This document shows, one piece after another, positions 5,743 through 58,818 of a stretch of DNA of 64,000 nt. The stretch covers positions 124,001 to 188,000 of the forward strand of contig NZ_QVLS01000008.1 of assembly GCF_003417535.1 (NCBI RefSeq). Direction: 5' to 3'. The DNA comes from Hydrogenophaga borbori. GTDB lineage: Bacteria > Pseudomonadota > Gammaproteobacteria > Burkholderiales > Burkholderiaceae_C. The notes under the pieces were generated by a model. It had not been told where the DNA came from and made no database searches. It was given only the letters and a program-made list of their open reading frames with translations. The first letter of the stretch is position 1. Each line of letters starts with the position of its first letter. The position numbers and the translations under genes are program-made.

Positions 5743-6617
5743 CGACCACCGCCCCCGCTCCGCGGGCGCCCTCGCGCCTGTCGCTCTGGCTCGACCTGAT
5801 CCGCTGGAACCGCCCCGCCGGCTGGCTGCTGTTGCTGTGGCCCACGCTGTCGGCGCTGTGGGTGGCGGCGGGCGGCTTTCCCGGCTGGCATCTGCTGCTG
5901 GTGTTCACGCTGGGCACCGTGCTGATGCGCAGCGCCGGCTGCTGCGTCAACGACGTGGCCGACCGCGACTTCGACCGCCACGTCAAGCGCACCGCCCAGC
6001 GGCCCGTCACCTCGGGCCAGGTGTCGGTGAAAGAGGCGCTGGCCGTGGGCGCGGTGTTGGCCTTGCTTGCCTTCGGCCTGGTGCTCACCACCAATGCGCT
6101 CACCATCGCGCTGTCCTTCGCGGCGCTGGCGATCACCCTGGCCTACCCCTTCGCCAAGCGGCTGGTGTCCATGCCGCAGGCGGTGCTGGGCGTGGCCTTC
6201 AGCTTCGGCATTCCCATGGCCTTCGCGGCGGTGCAGGGGGCCGTGCCCACGCTGGCCTGGGTGCTGCTGCTGGGCAACCTGTTCTGGGTGCTGGCCTACG
6301 ACACCGAGTACGCCATGGTCGACCGCGACGACGACCTTCGCATCGGCATGAAGACCTCCGCCATCACCCTCGGCCGCGCCGACGTGGCGGCGGTGACGGC
6401 CTTCTACCTGCTGCACCTGGCGATCTGGACCCTGGCCCTGTGGCCGCAGCTGCGCTCACTGGTGTGGCTGGCCGCGCTGGCCGTGGCGTTGGCCCAGGTG
6501 GCCTGGCACTTCACGCTGATCCGTGCACGCACGCGCGAAGGCTGTTTCGCGGCCTTCCGCGCCAACCACTGGCTGGGGTTCACGCTGTTCATCGGGGTGG
6601 CGGTCGGCCTGGTCTGA
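5739..6617 (+). CDS. ubiA: 4-hydroxybenzoate polyprenyltransferase
   Basis: UbiA, 292 residues, is an integral membrane enzyme that attaches the polyprenyl chain to 4-hydroxybenzoate in ubiquinone synthesis. Both aspartate-rich motifs are present: N71-DVADRDFD and D188[11 protein letters not shown]. Around eight hydrophobic segments alternate with short loops. The GTG start overlaps the oxyR TGA (GTGA), which indicates translational coupling. The DXD-type spacing and the RPVTSG loop are standard for UbiA rather than heme O synthase. Confidence 0.96.
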
Positions 6618-6666
6618 GGGCTTGGCTCGCCCAGGCAATGCTTCGCTGCCCTCCCTTTTTTCACAG

Positions 6667-7179: not shown

Positions 7180-8013
7180 CTACCGGCCGAACTCCTGCCC
7201 CAGTTCCTCGGCGCGTCGCTGCGCCGCCTTCAGCGCCGTTTCGAACGACGCCTTCATGCCCGCGGCCTCCATGGCCGTGAGCGCGGCGTAGGTGGTGCCC
7301 CCCTTGGAGGTGACGCGCTCGCGCAGCACCTGTGGCGGTTCGGCCGAGCGTTGCGCCAGCGTGGCCGCGCCCACGAAGGTGCCCACGGCCAGTTGCAGCG
7401 CGGTGTCGGCCGGCAGGCCCATGCGCGCGCCGGCGTCGCGCATGGCCTCGAGGAAATAGAACACATAGGCCGGGCCCGATCCGGACAGCGCGGTGACGGC
7501 GTCCAGATCGCGCTCGGTGGCCACCCAGACCAGCTCGCCCGTGGTGCGCACCACGCGCTCGACCAGGGCGCGGTCGGCGGCCGAGGCGCCGTCGCGCGCG
7601 AACAAGCCGGTCATGCCCAAGCCCACGAGCGCGGGCGTGTTGGGCATGGCGCGCACGATGCGCTGCGTGCCCAGCCAGGCGGCCATGCTGTCGCTGGTGA
7701 TGCCGGCGGCCACGCTCAGGTGCAGGGCGCCGCCCAGGTGCGGGCCGGCGGCGAGCGCCGCGTCCTTGAAGGTTTGCGGCTTCACGGCCCAGACCACCAG
7801 GTCCGACGGCTTGAGCCCTGCGCCCGCCGCGCCGAACAGCGCCACGCCGGGGAACTGCTGAGCCAGGCGGGCGCGCTGCTCCTCCCAGGGTTCGACGATC
7901 TGGAGGGCGCTGGGCGCATGGCCCTGGCGCAGCAGGCCGCCGATGACGGCGCTGGCCATGTTGCCGCCGCCGATGAAGGTGATGAGGGGGGAGGGAGATG
8001 CGGGCGTGTTCAT
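7180..8013 (-). CDS. proC: Pyrroline-5-carboxylate reductase
   Basis: ProC, 277 residues, reduces 1-pyrroline-5-carboxylate to proline with NAD(P)H. The Rossmann loop FIGGGNMASAVIGGLL (residues 13-28), the RAMPNTPALVG segment and the ALSGSGPAYVFYFLEAM dimer/active-site helix are all present, as is the VTSKGGTT motif. Two in-frame ATGs lie three codons apart (8013 and 8022); I chose MNTPAS. The convergent GNAT gene ends 12 bp away, and glpK ends 30 bp upstream on the same strand. Confidence 0.96.
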   Translation of the reverse strand: MNTPASPSPLITFIGGGNMASAVIGGLLRQGHAPSALQIVEPWEEQRARLAQQFPGVALFGAAGAGLKPSDLVVWAVKPQTFKDAALAAGPHLGGALHLSVAAGITSDSMAAWLGTQRIVRAMPNTPALVGLGMTGLFARDGASAADRALVERVVRTTGELVWVATERDLDAVTALSGSGPAYVFYFLEAMRDAGARMGLPADTALQLAVGTFVGAATLAQRSAEPPQVLRERVTSKGGTTYAALTAMEAAGMKASFETALKAAQRRAEELGQEFGR

Positions 8014-13619: not shown

Positions 13620-14424
13620 ATCCCGTTTCCGCGCGCGCACGCTGTTCCTGATGGCCTACCTGGTGTTCGCGCTGCTGCCCATCTACTGGATGGTGAACAT
13701 GAGCTTCAAGACGAACGGGGAGATCCTGTCCTCGTTCACGCTGTGGCCCGAGACCTTCACCTGGGACAACTACCGCACCATCTTCACCGACGCCTCGTGG
13801 TACTCGGGCTACATCAACAGCCTGATCTACGTCGGCATCAACACCGCGATCTCGCTCACGGTGGCGCTGCCCGCGGCCTACGCCTTCTCGCGCTACCGCT
13901 TCCTGGGCGACAAGCACGTGTTCTTCTGGCTGCTCACCAACCGCATGACGCCACCGGCGGTGTTCCTGCTGCCCTTCTTCCAGCTCTACACCACGCTGGG
14001 CCTGATGGACACGCACATCGCCGTGGCGCTGGCGCACCTGCTGTTCAACGTGCCGCTGGCGGTGTGGATCCTGGAAGGCTTCATGAGCGGCATCCCGCGC
14101 GAGATCGACGAGACCGCCTACATCGACGGCTACAGCTTCCCGCGCTTCTTCTTCACCATCTTCCTGCCCCTCATCAAGGCCGGCGTGGGCGTGGCCGCGT
14201 TCTTCTGCTTCATGTTCAGCTGGGTGGAGCTGCTGCTGGCGCGCACGCTCACCAGCGTGAACGCCAAGCCCATCGTGGCGACGATGACGCGCACGGTGTC
14301 GGCCTCGGGCATGGACTGGGCCACGCTGGCGGCGGCCGGCGTGCTGACCATCGTGCCGGGGGCGATCGTGATCTGGTTCGTGCGGCACTACATCGCGAAG
14401 GGCTTCGCGATGGGCCGCGTCTGA
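13612..14424 (+). CDS. glpQ: Glycerol ABC importer permease GlpQ
   Basis: A 270-residue inner-membrane permease of the MalG/UgpE type, second channel subunit of the glycerol importer. Six hydrophobic segments are visible, with the EAA-like loop in REIDETAYIDGYSFPRFF. The name follows the Rhizobium glycerol transporter; it is unrelated to the glycerophosphodiesterase GlpQ. The start lies inside the 3' end of glpP. Confidence 0.92.
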
Positions 14425-52984: not shown

Positions 52985-54586
52985 TCAGCCGCCCCGGACC
53001 GTGGTCTCCATCAGATGGCGCGTGACGCGCGGCGGCTCCAGGCCGATGTGGAAGGCCAGCCGGCGGTCGCGCAGGTCGACGTCGGCGGCGGTGGAGCGGT
53101 CGAAGCGGCGCAGGTGGTCCGTCCACGACTCGTCCACGATGACCTCGACGAAACGCCCGGGCTTGTTGATGTCGTGCAGCAGCTCCCAGGACAGCGCGCC
53201 CTGGCGCAGGCGGCTGCGCCGGCTTTCGTTGAACATCAGGTCGCGGAATTCCTTGGCGCGCGCCGGGTCGATCAGGTACTCGATGGTCAGCATGATGTGA
53301 CCGCGCTGGGGCGGCGACTCGACGCTGGTTGCCGTGGTGAGCACGCGCTGGGGCGTGAGGTCGCCCTCCGGGCCGCGGTCGGGCATCCAGCGGTTGGCCA
53401 GGGCCATGGCCACCCAGCCGCTCGCGGCCGCGATGCCCAGGGCCACCGACAGGCTGGTCCAGGTGGCGATCTGGCCCCACAGGGCGGCGCCGCTGGCGCT
53501 CGCGCCCATGATGGACATCTGGTAGATCGACATGCCACGCGCGCGCACCCAGTCGGGCAGACCCATCTGGATGGACACGCTCAGGGTGTTGGCGGTGGTG
53601 ATCCAGGCCGCGCCGCCGAAGAACATGGCGGGCACGGCCACCCAGACGCGGTCGGTCAGGGCCATCACCGCCATGGCCGCGGCCTGCAGCAGCGCGCCGC
53701 GCAGCACCAGCGCATCGCGCGGGTAGCGGCGGCGCAGGCGCGGCAGGAAGAAGGTCGACACGATGGCCCCTGCGCCCATGGAAGCCAGCAGCAGCGTGAA
53801 GGTGCCCGCGCCGCCGCCCTGCATGCCGCGCGCCAGCAGCGCCAGCAGGGCCAGCAGCGCCGTGGAGTGGAAGAAGAAGATGCAGATGCGCAGCAGCACG
53901 CCCTTGAGAAGGTAGGACTGCGAGACGTACTGCCAGCCCACGCGCATGGCCGTGCCCAGCCGCTCGCGCCCGAGCGGGTGGGGCTTGTGCTCGCGGTGCC
54001 AGCGCGCGATGCCGGCCGCCGCCACCAGCGAGAGCACCGCGTTGAGCAGAAAGACCCAGGCGCTGCCCGCGCCCGCGATCAGCGCGCCGGCCACCAGCGG
54101 GCCGATGATGCGCGAGGCGTTCATGGCCACGCCATTGAGGGCCAGCGCCGCCGGCAGCTGCGGGCGCGGCACCAACTCCGGCACGATGGCCGAGAACACC
54201 GGCCAGCGCATCGCGAAGCCGATGCCGTTGGCGAAGGTCAGCGCCAGCAGCAGCAGCGGTGACATCACCCCGAAGAAGACGAAGCCGCTGAGCACCATGG
54301 CCACCACCGCCACCCAGAGCTGCGTGACCAGGTAGTAGCGTTTGCGGTCCAGGTTGTCGGCCAGCGCCCCGCTGGGCAGGCCGAGCAGGAACACCGGCAG
54401 GGTCGAGGCCGTCTGCACCAGCGCCACCCAGATGGGGGTGGTGGTCAGCGAGGTCATCATCCACGCCGCCGCCACGTCGTTCATCCACATGCACAGGTTG
54501 GCCACGAGCCAGGTGCTCCACAGCAGGCGGAACACGGGCAGGCGCAGGGGGGCGATAGGGGAGAGGCTGTCGTCGGTGGCGGGCAT
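52985..54586 (-). CDS. MFS_3-type exporter with C-terminal ABM-like domain
   Basis: A 533-residue transporter. The first ~400 residues form a 12-helix MFS_3/EntS-like exporter (LPSGALADNLDRKRYYLVTQ between helices 2 and 3). A C-terminal cytoplasmic domain of about 110 residues (from GHIMLTIEYLIDPARAKEFRDLM) resembles dimeric antibiotic-biosynthesis-monooxygenase folds. This fusion is recurrent in the family. Substrate unknown. The ATG at 54,586 (MPATDDSLSPIAPL) was preferred to one six codons upstream; neither has a clear ribosome site. Confidence 0.85.
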   Translation of the reverse strand: MPATDDSLSPIAPLRLPVFRLLWSTWLVANLCMWMNDVAAAWMMTSLTTTPIWVALVQTASTLPVFLLGLPSGALADNLDRKRYYLVTQLWVAVVAMVLSGFVFFGVMSPLLLLALTFANGIGFAMRWPVFSAIVPELVPRPQLPAALALNGVAMNASRIIGPLVAGALIAGAGSAWVFLLNAVLSLVAAAGIARWHREHKPHPLGRERLGTAMRVGWQYVSQSYLLKGVLLRICIFFFHSTALLALLALLARGMQGGGAGTFTLLLASMGAGAIVSTFFLPRLRRRYPRDALVLRGALLQAAAMAVMALTDRVWVAVPAMFFGGAAWITTANTLSVSIQMGLPDWVRARGMSIYQMSIMGASASGAALWGQIATWTSLSVALGIAAASGWVAMALANRWMPDRGPEGDLTPQRVLTTATSVESPPQRGHIMLTIEYLIDPARAKEFRDLMFNESRRSRLRQGALSWELLHDINKPGRFVEVIVDESWTDHLRRFDRSTAADVDLRDRRLAFHIGLEPPRVTRHLMETTVRGG

Positions 54587-54949
54587 GCGTGGACACGAAG
54601 GCATGCGAAGACTGCGGAGCCTACCGCAGTTCAACCCCGCACTCACGTGCGACATTGCGCGGCCCGTTTGACGCCCCGCCGCCCCTTGCCTAGACTCGCC
54701 GCATGCCTTCTCGCCGGATCCACGCCCATTCGCATCGCGCCACCGCGCGTGCGCTGCCGTGCGCGCGTCACGTCCAGGGCCCTTCCGCGGCTCTGCGCGG
54801 CCACCGACTGCTGGCCGCACATTCCTCCGCCCGGCGATAACCCTTCCCCCTCGAACGCACACCTTCCATCGCCGGGCCCAGCAGCCAGTGCGATCCCTGC
54901 CGCGCGCCTGTTCCCTTTTTCTGGCGTCGGCGACCCGAAGGAGCCGTTC
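54587..54949. promoter_or_regulatory. 363-bp intergenic region with the rnk promoter
   Basis: It holds a good sigma-70 promoter, TTGACG (54,668-54,673) and TAGACT (54,691-54,696) with a 17 bp spacer, giving rnk a leader of about 245 nt. A 45-codon ATG frame at 54,703-54,840 has no ribosome site and I do not call it a gene. The rnk frame is also open through the region but shows no protein-like pattern. Confidence 0.65.
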
Positions 54950-55351
54950 ATGTCTTCCATCGTCCGCAGTGAGTGTGTTCTCACCGAGCTGGACCACGCG
55001 CGCCTGAGCAAGCTGCAGGACGCCGCGCGTGGCGGTGCCCTGGCCGATCTCCTGGCCGAGGCCGACCTCGTGCCCTCGCAGCGCGTGCCCGCCGACGTGG
55101 TCACCATGTATTCGCAGGTGCTCGTGCGCGACCACGCGTCGGGCGAGGTGCGCAAGCTGACGCTGTGCTACCCGAGCGACGCCGAGCCCGACGCGGGCTT
55201 TATCTCCGTGCTGTCTCCCATGGGCGCCGCGCTCATCGGGCGGCGCGTGGGCGAGCGCGTGCGCAGCGCGCTGCCCGCCGGGCTGGAGCGTGAGATGACC
55301 CTCGAGGCCATCCTGTTCCAGCCCGAAGCCAGCGGCGACTACAGCACCTAG
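54950..55351 (+). CDS. rnk: Rnk/GreA-C-domain nucleoside diphosphate kinase regulator
   Basis: A 133-residue protein with a short N-terminal coiled coil and a GreA/GreB C-terminal FKBP-like domain. VTMYSQVLVRDHASGEVRKLTLCYPSDA and LSPMGAALIGRRVGE are typical. Rnk binds RNA polymerase and was named for restoring nucleoside diphosphate kinase levels. The ATG is set by GAAGGAG eight bases upstream. An 80 bp gap separates it from the Usp-like gene. Confidence 0.88.
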   Translation: MSSIVRSECVLTELDHARLSKLQDAARGGALADLLAEADLVPSQRVPADVVTMYSQVLVRDHASGEVRKLTLCYPSDAEPDAGFISVLSPMGAALIGRRVGERVRSALPAGLEREMTLEAILFQPEASGDYST

Positions 55352-55431
55352 GCGCGCCCGCCGCGCCTTCCCCCTTGTTGGCCGACGGTGGCATGTCCAC
55401 CGGGTTGGGCCCTGCCTGGGAGTTACCTGCC

Positions 55432-56424
55432 ATGAAATTCTCTTCCCTCATTGCCTGGGACGACGCGGCCCTGCGCGAGTCGCTGCCCGCCAGCGCCGGC
55501 GCGACGGACGACCGCGCGCAACGGGGCGCGCGCGCGAACGACACGGTCGCGCCGCCCTGGCTGCTGGTGCTGACCACCCTGTCGGCGGTCACCGGCGACC
55601 ACCTGGCGAAGGTGGCGCGCGCGGCGGCGGAACTGGGCGTGGGGCTGCGGCTCGCGTACTACGCGGGCGAGCAGCCCATCGGTCTGGTCGATCCCCTGGC
55701 GCGGCTGGCGCAGCGCGCGCGCTTCGTGCGCCGCCAGCACGGCATCGGCGTCGAGGTGGTGGCCCACGAGGTGCGCAGCCGCTACCAGCTGCTGCGGCTG
55801 TCGCGCGCGGCCGGCCTGACCTGTCTGCTGGACGCCAACGAACGGCCGCGGCGCTCGCGCCTCGGGCCCGACCTGCTGTCGCTGCTGCTGCGCGAGGGCC
55901 AGGGGCCGCTGTGGGTGGTGAACGCGTCGGACACCGCCTCGGCGGCGCCGCTGTGCTGCTTCGCGCGCACGGCGCCGCTGTCGCGCGAGCGCGATCTGAT
56001 GCGCTGGTCGCGCGTGTTCGCCCAAGGGCGCGCGGTGCAGCTGGTGCACGTGCTGCAGACCGCGGTGTCACCGCCCGACTCGGGCGACGCCGCCGAACTG
56101 ACGGTGTTCGACCACGTCTTCCGGCAGCTGCGCCTGCAGGCCTTCCAGGCGCTGGACACCTTGTCGCGGCCGCTGCGCGAGGCCGGCTGCGAGACCACTT
56201 TCACCGTGCTCGCGGGCGATGTCGAGCAGCAGCTGCGCCAGCACCTGCGCGCCACGAGGCCCGCGATGGTGCTCATCGGCCACCGCTGGCGGCCGTGGTC
56301 GGTGGGCGCGGCGCGCTCGCGCGTGCAGGGCATCGCAGAGCAGGGCGCCGACGCCCTGGTGGTGCCGCTGCCGCGTGGCGCCTGGTGGTCGTGGATCGCG
56401 CGCGCGATCGGCTGGCGGGGGTGA
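55432..56424 (+). CDS. Divergent universal stress protein-like protein
   Basis: A 330-residue protein with two alpha/beta halves. The second half ends MVLIGHRWRPWSVGAARSR...GADALVVPLP, which resembles the ATP-loop and last strand of UspA domains, although the G-x2-G-x9-G(S/T) motif is degenerate. The first half looks like a more decayed copy. No membrane segment is present apart from a hydrophobic tail WWSWIARAIGW. Function unknown. GGGAG precedes the ATG. The stop overlaps the start of the beta-helix gene, so the two are coupled. Confidence 0.6.
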   Translation: MKFSSLIAWDDAALRESLPASAGATDDRAQRGARANDTVAPPWLLVLTTLSAVTGDHLAKVARAAAELGVGLRLAYYAGEQPIGLVDPLARLAQRARFVRRQHGIGVEVVAHEVRSRYQLLRLSRAAGLTCLLDANERPRRSRLGPDLLSLLLREGQGPLWVVNASDTASAAPLCCFARTAPLSRERDLMRWSRVFAQGRAVQLVHVLQTAVSPPDSGDAAELTVFDHVFRQLRLQAFQALDTLSRPLREAGCETTFTVLAGDVEQQLRQHLRATRPAMVLIGHRWRPWSVGAARSRVQGIAEQGADALVVPLPRGAWWSWIARAIGWRG

Positions 56425-57299
56425 TGGCCATGGAACTCTCCAAAGCCTTCGTGAAGGCCAAGAACCCGTGCGCCGACGGCTTCCGCTGGTTCCTGCGCCA
56501 CCGCCCGCAGGGCGAGGACTACCAGCCGCTGCTGGACGCGCTGGTGGCCGACGGCCGAGTCGACGACGCCTGCTGGCTGCTGGCGCAGTTCGGCCCCACC
56601 AGCGCGGTGCTGCAGCTCGACGAGCTGTCCTGCGAGTCCATCGTCTTCGCGGGCGCCATCGAGGTGCGCGGCGGCATCGACGCCGGCGCGCGTGTGCGCG
56701 CCGGCCGGGGCATCCGCGCGGGCGGCGACATCCAGGTCGGGCGCGAGCTGGTGGCGGGCGAAACCATCGCGGCCGGCGGCGTGGTCGAGGCCACCACCCT
56801 GGAGGCCGGCGGAGACCTGCTGGCCGGGGCCGCGGTCGTCGAAGGTGCCCTGCGCGTGGGTGGCCAGTTGAGGATCGCGCGCGACCTGGTGTGCCGCCGC
56901 GACCTCGACGTGGGCGCGCAGGCCAGCGTGGGCGGCGTGCTGGTGGCGCAGGGTGAGGTGCGCGTGGCCCGCAGCCTGCGCGTGCGCGGCACGCTGCGCA
57001 CGGGCGGCGGCGTGCGCGCGGGCGATGGCGTGCTGGTCGATGGCGCGATCGATTGCGGCTCGCACCTCGACGCGGGCTGGGGCATCAAGGCCGGCGGACC
57101 CATCACCGCGCGCGGCGCGATCCGCGCCGGCGAAAGCCTCTGCGCCGACGGCGAGATCGCGGCCGGCGCGGGCTACGGCGTGTACGCCGGCCTGTGCGTG
57201 CAGCGCGAGGACTGGGCCGGCAGCGCGCGCGTGATCGCCACCGAGCGGCCGGCCGAGCTGTTGAGCGGTTGCTGGGTCGGCCCGGCCGTGCTGGCGTGA
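56424..57299 (+). CDS. Beta-helix repeat protein of unknown function
   Basis: A 291-residue protein. An N-terminal helical domain of about 65 residues (NPCADGFRWFLRHRP...VDDACWLLAQFGPT) is followed by about 200 residues of short repeats of the type I.AGG.I.AG..V.AGG, with Gly, Ala and Val or Ile at fixed intervals. This pattern suggests a right- or left-handed beta-helix like that of bactofilins or DUF342/FapA-type proteins. It has no signal peptide or membrane helix. Translationally coupled to the Usp-like gene through GTGATGG. I do not recognise a characterised relative. Confidence 0.65.
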   Translation: MAMELSKAFVKAKNPCADGFRWFLRHRPQGEDYQPLLDALVADGRVDDACWLLAQFGPTSAVLQLDELSCESIVFAGAIEVRGGIDAGARVRAGRGIRAGGDIQVGRELVAGETIAAGGVVEATTLEAGGDLLAGAAVVEGALRVGGQLRIARDLVCRRDLDVGAQASVGGVLVAQGEVRVARSLRVRGTLRTGGGVRAGDGVLVDGAIDCGSHLDAGWGIKAGGPITARGAIRAGESLCADGEIAAGAGYGVYAGLCVQREDWAGSARVIATERPAELLSGCWVGPAVLA

Positions 57300-57358
57300 G
57301 CGCGGCGGCACGGGTGGGGAGCGCCTGAGCGCGCCCGGCCGGCGCCAAGCGGGCCGCC

Positions 57359-57541
57359 TCAGCCGAGCGCGCCCGGCGCCTTCAGGGCGATGAAGGCCAG
57401 CGTGCCGAGGAAGACCAGCACCAGCACGAAGGCCACGGCGATCAGCACCAGCGGGTGATCGCTCGGCGCCTCCAGCCGGCTGCGCCGCGCCACGCCGATG
57501 AGGCCCCACAGCACGGTCCTGATTTCGCGGGTGATGCGCAT
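57359..57541 (-). CDS. Small DUF2970 membrane protein
   Basis: A 60-residue protein with a basic N-terminus and one membrane helix (PLVLIAVAFVLVLVFLGTLAFIAL). It matches DUF2970 proteins, often encoded beside cytochrome or respiratory genes in beta-proteobacteria. Its role is unknown. It follows the triheme cytochrome by 14 bp and shares its strand. Confidence 0.75.
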   Translation of the reverse strand: MRITREIRTVLWGLIGVARRSRLEAPSDHPLVLIAVAFVLVLVFLGTLAFIALKAPGALG

Positions 57542-57555
57542 GGCGGGGCGCTCCT

Positions 57556-58818
57556 TCACCGGACCTTCTGCACGTCCAGCGGCAGCACGCGCGAGGCGGT
57601 GTTGCCCCAGGCGCCGCGCACGTAGCTGGCCAGCGCCGCGATCTCGGCGTTCGACAGCTCCTGCCCGAAGGGCGGCATGCCATAGGGCCGGGGATTGCCG
57701 GGCGTGCTGGGCGGGAAGCCGCCGCTGACGATCACGCGCACCAGGTTCGCGCTGGAGGCCATGGTCACCGTGCGGTGCCCGGCCAGCGAGGGGAACTCGG
57801 GCGCGGCGCTGGTGCCGTTCTCTCCGTGGCATTGCGCGCACTTGGCCTCGTACAGGCGCTGGCCGAGCACCAGCACCTGGGGTTCGGCCCGCTCCGTGTC
57901 GGGCGCGGCCGGCGCCACCACGGGCAGCGACTTCAGGTAGGTGGCCATGGCGTTGAGGTCCGCCTCGTCCAGGTGGCGGGTGCTGCCGGCCACCACGTCG
58001 GCCATGGGGCCCAGGGTGGCACCGCGCGCGCTGTGGCCGTCGCGCAGCAGGCGAACCACCTCGGCCAGCGGCCAGTCCTGCACGCCGGCTTCCCGGGGCG
58101 AGGCCAGCGAGGGCGCGTACCAGCCCTGCATGGGGATCTGTCCGCCGCTGAAGTCGGGCTCGCTCGCGGTGGCGCCCAGCGCGTTGCGCGGCGCGTGGCA
58201 GGCCATGCAATGGCCCAGGCCCAGGGTCAGGTAGGCGCCGCGGTTCCACTCGGCCGACCGCGTGTTGTCCGGGCGGAACGGCTCGGGCGAGAAGAACAGC
58301 GTGCGCCAGGCCACCAGCGCGGTCTGCGTGCCGTAGGGGAAGCGCAGGTCGTGCACGCGGTTGGGCGCGCGCACCGGCGGCAGGCTCATCAGGTAGGCGT
58401 GCAGGGCATCGCTGTCCTCGCGCGTCACGCGGGCGTAGTCGGGGTAGGGGAAGGCGGGGTAGAGCAGGCGGCCGTTGCGCGACTGGCCGTGGTGCAAGGC
58501 GCGCCAGAGGTCGTCGGCGCTCCAGCGGCCGATGCCGGTGTCGGCGTCGGGCGTGAGGTTGGAGGCGTACACCGTGCCGAAGGGCGTGGCGATGCCCAGG
58601 CCGCCCGCGTAGGCCGCGCCGCCGCGCTCGGTGTGGCAGGCCGCGCAGTTGCCGGCCCTGGCCAGATAGGCGCCGCGTTCCACGAGTTCGGCGGTGACCG
58701 GCACGGCCGCGCCGGGCTCGATGGGCAGCAGCGCGGTGGCCTGGCGCACCCACAGCGCGCCCGCGCCCACGAGGCCGAGCAGCAGCACGGCGGCGAAGGT
58801 CCAGCGGCGGGCGCTCAT
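57556..58818 (-). CDS. Membrane-anchored triheme cytochrome c
   Basis: A 420-residue cytochrome c with an uncleaved N-terminal anchor (WTFAAVLLLGLVGAGALWV) and three CxxCH sites: CAACH, CMACH and CAQCH. This is the layout of the cytochrome subunits of membrane alcohol, gluconate and aldehyde dehydrogenases, which pass electrons to quinone or oxidase. No such dehydrogenase is adjacent. It overlaps the stop of the diheme cytochrome (ATGA) and is followed by DUF2970. Confidence 0.9.
   Translation of the reverse strand: MSARRWTFAAVLLLGLVGAGALWVRQATALLPIEPGAAVPVTAELVERGAYLARAGNCAACHTERGGAAYAGGLGIATPFGTVYASNLTPDADTGIGRWSADDLWRALHHGQSRNGRLLYPAFPYPDYARVTREDSDALHAYLMSLPPVRAPNRVHDLRFPYGTQTALVAWRTLFFSPEPFRPDNTRSAEWNRGAYLTLGLGHCMACHAPRNALGATASEPDFSGGQIPMQGWYAPSLASPREAGVQDWPLAEVVRLLRDGHSARGATLGPMADVVAGSTRHLDEADLNAMATYLKSLPVVAPAAPDTERAEPQVLVLGQRLYEAKCAQCHGENGTSAAPEFPSLAGHRTVTMASSANLVRVIVSGGFPPSTPGNPRPYGMPPFGQELSNAEIAALASYVRGAWGNTASRVLPLDVQKVR

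Follow-up and report, generated by a model that had tools for sequence, protein, structure and literature searches.

The window considered here is a 64,000-nucleotide stretch of Hydrogenophaga borbori DNA (positions 124001-188000 of contig C36, in a genome of 4.58 Mb). Within it a gene for a Usp-like protein is followed by a gene for a β-solenoid protein, and ahead of both lie rnk and a leader that carries a short upstream open reading frame (uORF) and two hairpins, H1 and H2 (Table 1). We propose that the Usp-like and solenoid genes probably close an operon for adaptation to stress, leader-rnk-tandem usp-β-solenoid, which has a GNAT-like gene in many relatives and is gated by the uORF and H1. 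Comparison between relatives establishes the gene order, the protein folds, the promoter, the in-frame uORF beside the -10 element and both hairpins.

The leader runs in this order: σ70-like promoter, ATG, short open reading frame, stop at the 5' arm of H1, loop, 3' arm of H1, a common AGCGCGAT, H2 and the start codon of the gene behind, which is rnk or the solenoid gene. The ATG mostly lies 6-8 nucleotides past the -10 (66/71 elements), so that there is hardly space for a ribosome-binding site. The frame was counted in 80 distinct elements by taking the best-scoring promoter plus ATG in any frame, with the -10 placed 4-9 nucleotides before the ATG. The outcome can be summarised as (i) a -10/ATG pair is present in 66 of the 80 elements, each time in frame with the H1 stop; (ii) the stop falls at one position in 50 of these, at a second position 12 nucleotides further in 15, and one frame reads on; (iii) a control stretch 430-620 nucleotides upstream yields a pair in 3/80, none in frame. 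As the elements share descent, the 66 cases are not 66 independent trials. The uORF takes 16 different lengths (mode 41 codons, 36/71, in a count where the in-frame ATG was preset), thus changes in length preserved the frame. In the lineage of the window the stop (54838-54840) starts at the final base of the H1 5' arm; elsewhere it abuts or overlaps the last base. A conserved protein was rejected on codon-position counts, and inspection by eye found no conserved run of one amino-acid codon. The C-terminus does recur as A-A-H/D-S, and close to the end a GCA codon is conserved down to its third base, that is, as nucleotides. We read the uORF as selected for being translated and not for its product.

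The promoter of the leader was the sole promoter-like site in an independent scan of 54600-55000 (shuffles gave a mean of 0.0). Its scores across the elements range from 5 to 11 of 12 and reach at least 8 in 42/66.

H1 pairs at 10/10 positions in 71 of 79 distinct elements, a count that takes the best-pairing 3' arm within 75 nucleotides and so favours pairing. The count failed in three of the 79 (L071, L093, L138), perhaps not true elements. Among the 76 elements with at least 8/10 pairs the arms are identical in 61; the last pair is T-A in 63 and C-G in 11, and the sixth is G-C in 67 and G-T in 7. On alignment A8 (30 sequences) nine of the ten pairs never vary and one sequence is compensated, so constraint on the sequence itself is strong as well. 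The loop commonly holds GCGCA, and the 3' arm can pair with a downstream GCGAT in 94.7% of cells. The covariance model R1 scores the window at 78.3 bits, the window being one of its 30 members.

RNAalifold on alignment A7 found H1 and missed H2, because the 3' arms of H2 are not aligned there; H2 was therefore counted by script. The full 6-bp stem is present in 30/48 elements against a shuffled mean of 18.4 and a maximum of 25 in 500 shuffles that ignore relatedness, and in 11 of the 25 elements whose arm departs from the consensus. Five of 53 elements were dropped for want of an anchor, and the anchor was misplaced in the window and in L039; the window has no H2 stem at the anchor used, and its hairpin folds a few bases on. 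Compensated stems occur in Rhodoferax and other Comamonadaceae-type loci (GCGGGC/GCCTGC) and in Macromonas (GCGTAC/GTACGC). In Malikia (L076) the stem is GCGTGC/GCACGC, with which the consensus arm would pair equally. The four leaders scanned (the window, L057, L067, L090) show no terminator-like site at either hairpin; L067 and L090 each have a single such site elsewhere. Rfam gave nothing at E ≤ 1 in window positions 54500-57600, nor at the leader of L050, L057 and L072 (E ≤ 1) or of L050, L067 and L072 (E ≤ 10). Elsewhere in L050, a Rhodoferax metagenome-assembled genome, positions 14106-14419 match the Rfam 5' ureB small RNA (93.3 bits).

Solenoid-gene loci numbered 81, the window plus 80 kept of 127 relatives (one genome-contig scan). 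The leader is present in 54, of which 53 were found by pattern and one (L084) by the covariance model among the other 28; a candidate in L079 was dropped as spurious, with 8 substitutions. Named loci with the leader include Herminiimonas, Thiobacillus, Aromatoleum and Bordetella, among others. In Aromatoleum buckelii (L095) the solenoid gene and leader lie on a record titled plasmid pU120. Azohydromonas australica (L084) has two leaders, at 6525-6623 (31.2 bits) and 7270-7372 (80.5 bits), each before an rnk-cluster gene, with two Usp genes following. Within the genus the element occurs at 24 places in 23/36 genomes; 22 of these are followed by rnk, one by usp-solenoid and one by a contig end. 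Across the order it was found in four more genomes outside the genus, before rnk in all four, one of which has the solenoid gene. This places it at root as an rnk leader. In some leader loci (e.g. L057, L086) rnk is apparently reduced to a short remnant, and in Bordetella (L104, L105, L110, L116) it is gone and the leader directly precedes the solenoid gene. Searches with the leader model found it in 2/274 genomes class-wide and 6/200 order-wide; filters were strict and few candidates were scored per genome, so the distribution outside the genus is probably underestimated.

A possible mechanism follows from this layout. Ribosomes starting on the 5' AUG would run to the stop at the H1 5' arm and keep H1 open. 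Were initiation or termination on the uORF to falter, or recycling to be slow, H1 would close and the leader refold. The freed 3' arm of H1 could then pair with the downstream GCGAT, with H2 placed ahead of the ribosome-binding site, and such refolding would change how strongly rnk and the genes downstream of it are expressed. We tentatively suggest a new class of leader, at somewhat less than even confidence, in which a leaderless uORF is kept for its frame and near-constant length rather than its peptide, and in which the terminating ribosome gates H1 and thereby governs an operon that encodes the RNA-polymerase-binding factor Rnk, a tandem Usp, a β-solenoid protein with phage relatives and a GNAT. 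In stressed E. coli, leaderless messages are reported to be translated in preference to others (cited in PMC7298713, from the part of that paper available). The leader could accordingly sense the state of the translation machinery rather than a single metabolite.

Table 1 Features of the putative operon in the window and the basis of each assignment.
Feature	Position	Strand	Basis and details
σ70-like promoter	54668..54696	+	TTGACG - 17 nucleotides - TAGACT; -35 at 54668, -10 at 54691
Apparently leaderless uORF	54703..54840	+	45 codons + TAA; ATG 6 nucleotides after -10; C-terminus ..LLAAHSSARR
Hairpin H1	54829..54877	+	10 bp: GCCCGGCGAT (54829-54838) / ATCGCCGGGC (54868-54877); pyrimidine-rich loop
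Hairpin H2, before ribosome-binding site	~54899..54931	+	Window: folding alone; covariation in relatives
Rnk (GreA/GreB family)	54950..55351	+	Pfam GreA_GreB 7.2e-20; NCBIfam nucleoside diphosphate kinase regulator 104.5 bits vs cut-off 109
Degenerate tandem Usp (UspE-like fold)	55432..56424	+	330 residues; Pfam, alignment, model, Foldseek
N-terminal helical domain (~residues 1-57), β-solenoid, C-terminal cap	56424..57299	+	Open reading frame, alignment, model
Two cytochrome c genes	downstream of solenoid gene	opposite	Pfam

The Usp-like protein scores 15.3 bits against Pfam Usp (PF00582), under the cut-off of 24, and so is missed by the profile, which a relative at the same place in L067 matches at 93.8 bits in two stretches. 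Its AlphaFold2 model, built from 18 sequences, has a mean predicted local distance difference test (pLDDT) of 81 and a predicted template modelling score (pTM) of 0.78, with residues 1-40 below 50. Foldseek places 3loq (E 6.4e-11) and UspE (4r2k, 9.1e-11) among the best matches. The top 22 rows are all tandem-length Usp-family chains (E 6.4e-11 to 2.7e-7), and transporter C-terminal domains appear from 7.9e-7. Comparison with PA1789 (3mt0, titled function unknown) gave template modelling scores of 0.61/0.70. By its predicted structure the protein has the tandem Usp fold. The relatives retain GS/GT (..TGSVAQRLAK.., ..RGTTLDQ..), which we take to be the ATP-loop motif; the window protein has GAARSRVQ and LGPDLLS at these places (alignment A2). 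The preliminary description of this DNA, made from sequence, had thus correctly seen a two-half Usp-like protein with a degenerate ATP loop. Without the loop residues it is likely to be a binding subunit and not an ATP-dependent sensor. In the same genome eight places exceed the Pfam Usp cut-off, two of them sharing one frame. Third-codon-position GC is 0.95 in both the Usp-like and solenoid genes.

The solenoid gene could start at ATG 56424 or at ATG 56430. Its relatives start at the counterpart of 56430 and the first methionine is nearly invariant (alignment A5), so that 56430 is probably the conserved start. The overlap with the Usp gene described earlier amounts to one base (TGATG) if 56424 is used and disappears with 56430. 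Hydrophobic residues recur every 6 and glycine every 18 residues, a periodicity that takes the repeat beyond chance; the glycine maximum was reached in 2/1000 shuffles. The AlphaFold2 model (65 sequences; mean pLDDT 93.0, pTM 0.88), in which confidence drops to pLDDT 67-73 over the first 30 residues, has helices at residues 5-10, 15-24, 31-40 and 44-54, then 29 short strands that extend to residue 239, and finally a C-terminal cap. This agrees with the β-helix foreseen in the preliminary description. The some 20 Gly-Ala-Val repeats counted there are real repetition, better counted as ~10-11 coils of 18 residues. The protein also has no stretch resembling a signal peptide, as that description had it, the highest 15-residue hydropathy mean within residues 1-60 being 0.76. 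Disorder or a clear match to an enzyme family had been named as outcomes that would speak against that description; neither was seen, as the modelled protein is ordered and gave no match to an enzyme family.

FapA (PF03961) is the nearest Pfam family and matches 52/65 members of the solenoid family at E ≤ 0.01; bactofilin (PF04519) matches 10/65 at the same threshold. Against the FapA cut-off of 31 the window protein scores 31.1 bits from start 56424, 27.3 from 56430 and 21.2 in the genome search, and it gave no match to the bactofilin profile. Foldseek returned nothing for the model at E ≤ 0.001. A left-handed hexapeptide acyltransferase was considered and rejected: VIA-align gave Z ~18-20 to YdcK/LpxD/GlmU, but with a root-mean-square deviation of ~11-12. 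Deviations of 3-4 were obtained with β-helices such as 3p4g and 6n2c, from which no function is drawn. The top PDB profile match, 9e5c (LIM domain-containing protein, 4e-17), covers profile positions 82-248, the repeat part. In three genomes of the order (G216, G141, G089) the homologues were matched as two separate pieces, which suggests shorter solenoids in some; one G089 match contains a TGA. We consider it most likely that the protein forms a soluble rod in the cytoplasm, akin to FapA and bactofilin, and works as a scaffold or adaptor by way of the helical domain at its N-terminus.

That domain, which the preliminary description did not recognise, also occurs in phage and prophage proteins. 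A viral collection yielded ten loci, six of which (L158-L161, L164, L167) encode proteins that fit the N-terminal profile as well as that of the whole family. By Pfam, the phage-type gene of L158 adjoins ERF and a PD-(D/E)XK nuclease of DUF3799 and that of L161 adjoins YqaJ; three of the eight neighbours scanned had no Pfam match. In Edwardsiella phage GF-2 (L168:4001-5047) an annotated collagen-like protein shows 46% identity across the first 54 residues, and its gene lies directly behind one annotated as antitermination protein N. The phage-type proteins of L158, L159, L160, L161 and L167 range from ~195 to 305 residues in length, although both ends match the family, which suggests that the number of coils varies. 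The N-terminal helices also drew PPR-like matches (6een, E 1.4e-8 to 1.6e-7); these are to designed repeats over residues 27-53 and were not read as homology.

E. coli YdhT matches the N-terminal domain with an hhalign probability of 94.4 (E 9.3e-8). When YdhT, 2000 shuffled versions of it and 8678 open reading frames were searched with the profile, YdhT was the best non-family sequence (E 8.3e-5; next 0.61). The phage-type protein of L164 has the family N-terminus, and its repeat part matches phrog_4433 and phrog_18079, as does YdhT, plus several tail-fibre families. A domain common to the solenoid family and YdhT is moderately supported by these sequence comparisons, as the relation rests on one template sequence.

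Gene neighbourhoods were counted on the same strand within ~2.5 kb of the solenoid gene. Upstream, Usp and Rnk each occur in 15/81 loci and a GNAT-like gene in 1/81; downstream, a GNAT-like gene occurs in 40/81 and an Rnk-profile gene in 5/81. The rnk-usp-solenoid order recurs in four other members of the genus, and Rnk-Usp occurs without a nearby solenoid gene in G001 and G213. The coupling of Usp and solenoid put forward earlier therefore holds only in part, as adjacency in the 15 loci with Usp upstream; the pair is a non-obligate unit, the GNAT-like gene is the commoner neighbour and the leader (54/81) is more constant. Titles of the solenoid-gene relatives mostly name genera that we assign to Burkholderiales and Rhodocyclales, and two say Gammaproteobacteria; the nearest named relatives are Hydrogenophaga. 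Among the 36 genomes of the genus survey eight have a strong solenoid homologue and two further a weak one.

The separate GNAT-like gene matches Acetyltransf_1 weakly, at E ≤ 0.1 in 10/30 (best 7.5e-4), and a PDB profile search reached an acetyltransferase only at E 0.41. A Q/R-x-x-G-x-A motif, presumably the GNAT motif, can be discerned by eye in alignment A6. The solenoid protein is possibly acetylated by the neighbouring GNAT. No match to the GNAT-like gene was found in the genome of the window, in a search without a positive control; window positions 57299-57359 lack the GNAT-like gene that the nearest relatives, L038 and L039, carry between the solenoid and cytochrome c genes. Downstream of the solenoid gene in L101 (10927-11835) lies a GNAT-Rnk fusion (Pfam Acetyltransf_3 and GreA_GreB). 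The downstream Rnk genes of L056, L095, L106 and L108 fall in the same sequence cluster, and both parts are visible in L056, L106 and L108.

Several observations weigh against an operon gated by uORF and H1. Twenty-seven of the 81 solenoid loci have no leader (one, L038, is cut by a contig end), no gene matching the Rnk profile is close by in 34 of the 53 loci where the pattern found a leader, and under the strict filters a leader match came from only two of the five genomes of the order that have a full-length solenoid gene. No recognisable -10/ATG pair was seen in 14/80 elements. Promoter scores are modest in many, 24/66 falling below 8 of 12, and a stricter promoter scan finds none in L067 and L090. 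The uORF body is under little protein-level constraint, with 366/328/448 differences at codon positions 1/2/3 in 55 uORF pairs of <30% divergence, the last 8 codons excluded; in the window its third-position GC is 0.73 against 0.91-0.95 in the genes. The pairing of the H1 3' arm with GCGAT is compensated in one sequence only (L068). Lastly, H1 is nearly invariant in sequence, with identical arms in 61/76 elements, as is expected of a palindrome bound by protein. H1 could then be a DNA operator or roadblock for a transcription factor, with the uORF incidental. We regard this as unlikely, since H1 in the window lies ~130 nucleotides downstream of the promoter, in a region presumably transcribed, ATG and H1 stop share a frame in 66/66 cases, H2 covaries as RNA and H1 pairing survives changes of T-A to C-G and, at another pair, to G-T. 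Rather less likely still is that the uORF encodes a small protein acting in trans and the hairpins merely separate it from rnk. The recurring C-terminus, the promoter-proximal start and the precedent of peTrpL, a trans-acting leader peptide of Sinorhizobium (PMC7298713, available part), would fit such a role, but the body of the peptide is nearly unconstrained at the codon level and the conserved GCA is held at its third base too.

Two further explanations concern the solenoid protein. The preliminary description held that the pair may form a cytoplasmic scaffold or filament with a stress-sensing partner, which would make the solenoid protein a bactofilin-like filament former regulated by the Usp; the solenoid fold and the matches of the family to FapA (52/65) and bactofilin (10/65) agree with this. 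It appears improbable given that the window protein itself lacks a bactofilin match, that Usp is upstream in only 15/81 loci and that the N-terminal domain is common to phage proteins encoded next to early genes, which does not suggest a cytoskeleton. At a similarly low level of confidence, the protein may be a phage early protein acquired by the host, captured beside rnk and acting on transcription or recombination complexes. The viral-collection homologues beside ERF, the PD-(D/E)XK nuclease (L158) and YqaJ (L161), and the GF-2 homologue directly after the antitermination protein N gene, point this way, but in GF-2 the match is limited to the first 54 residues. Since the phage relatives sit among early genes where checked, action on such complexes would be the main alternative to the role of scaffold or adaptor.

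The role of Rnk itself is described as unknown in the available part of PMC4598747. A leader that ties rnk, Usp, solenoid and GNAT into one unit, as in the operon we propose, offers a concrete handle on the question. It is also a candidate case, in Burkholderiales and related bacteria, of control by a leaderless uORF. Through its N-terminal domain, a cellular family that has gone unstudied is connected with phage proteins and, at moderate support, with E. coli YdhT. The leader lay outside the preliminary description; a search of one open-access collection of papers found no account of it, nor the phrase 'rnk leader'.

Parts of the proposed operon have counterparts among known systems. The Usp-like protein shares its tandem fold with UspE-type proteins such as PA1789 (3mt0), from which it differs in lacking the ATP-loop residues and in its sub-cut-off Pfam score. 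The solenoid protein has a Gly-rich β-solenoid in common with FapA and bactofilin; its best stretch covers ~84/272 FapA positions, and its N-terminal domain is different. With YdhT it shares, at moderate support, an RWFLRHFP-G--Y N-terminal domain followed by a repeat-rich region, whereas YdhT has different neighbours (ydhU, X, W, V, Y), lacks the CxxG part of the motif and has another repeat sequence.

Leaders of rnk and greA are known from Enterobacteria, Pseudomonas and Yersinia, and of greA also from bacilli, according to the available part of Naville & Gautheret 2010 (PMC2965389). That part describes terminator/antiterminator structures and no feature common to the greA and rnk kinds. The present element is likewise an RNA leader before a gene of this kind for which alternative structures are proposed. 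It is set apart by description, as the same part of PMC2965389 names no uORF, whereas here a short open reading frame touches a hairpin and the four leaders scanned have no terminator-like site at H1 or H2. A likeness in layout is seen with trpL of Sinorhizobium meliloti, a leaderless uORF attenuator whose RNA starts at the AUG of the small open reading frame (PMC7298713, available part). Both have a 5' AUG small open reading frame upstream of the regulated gene, the RNA start being predicted in the present case. The leader described here instead has no conserved run of a single amino-acid codon, and rnk, usp and the solenoid gene lie behind it.

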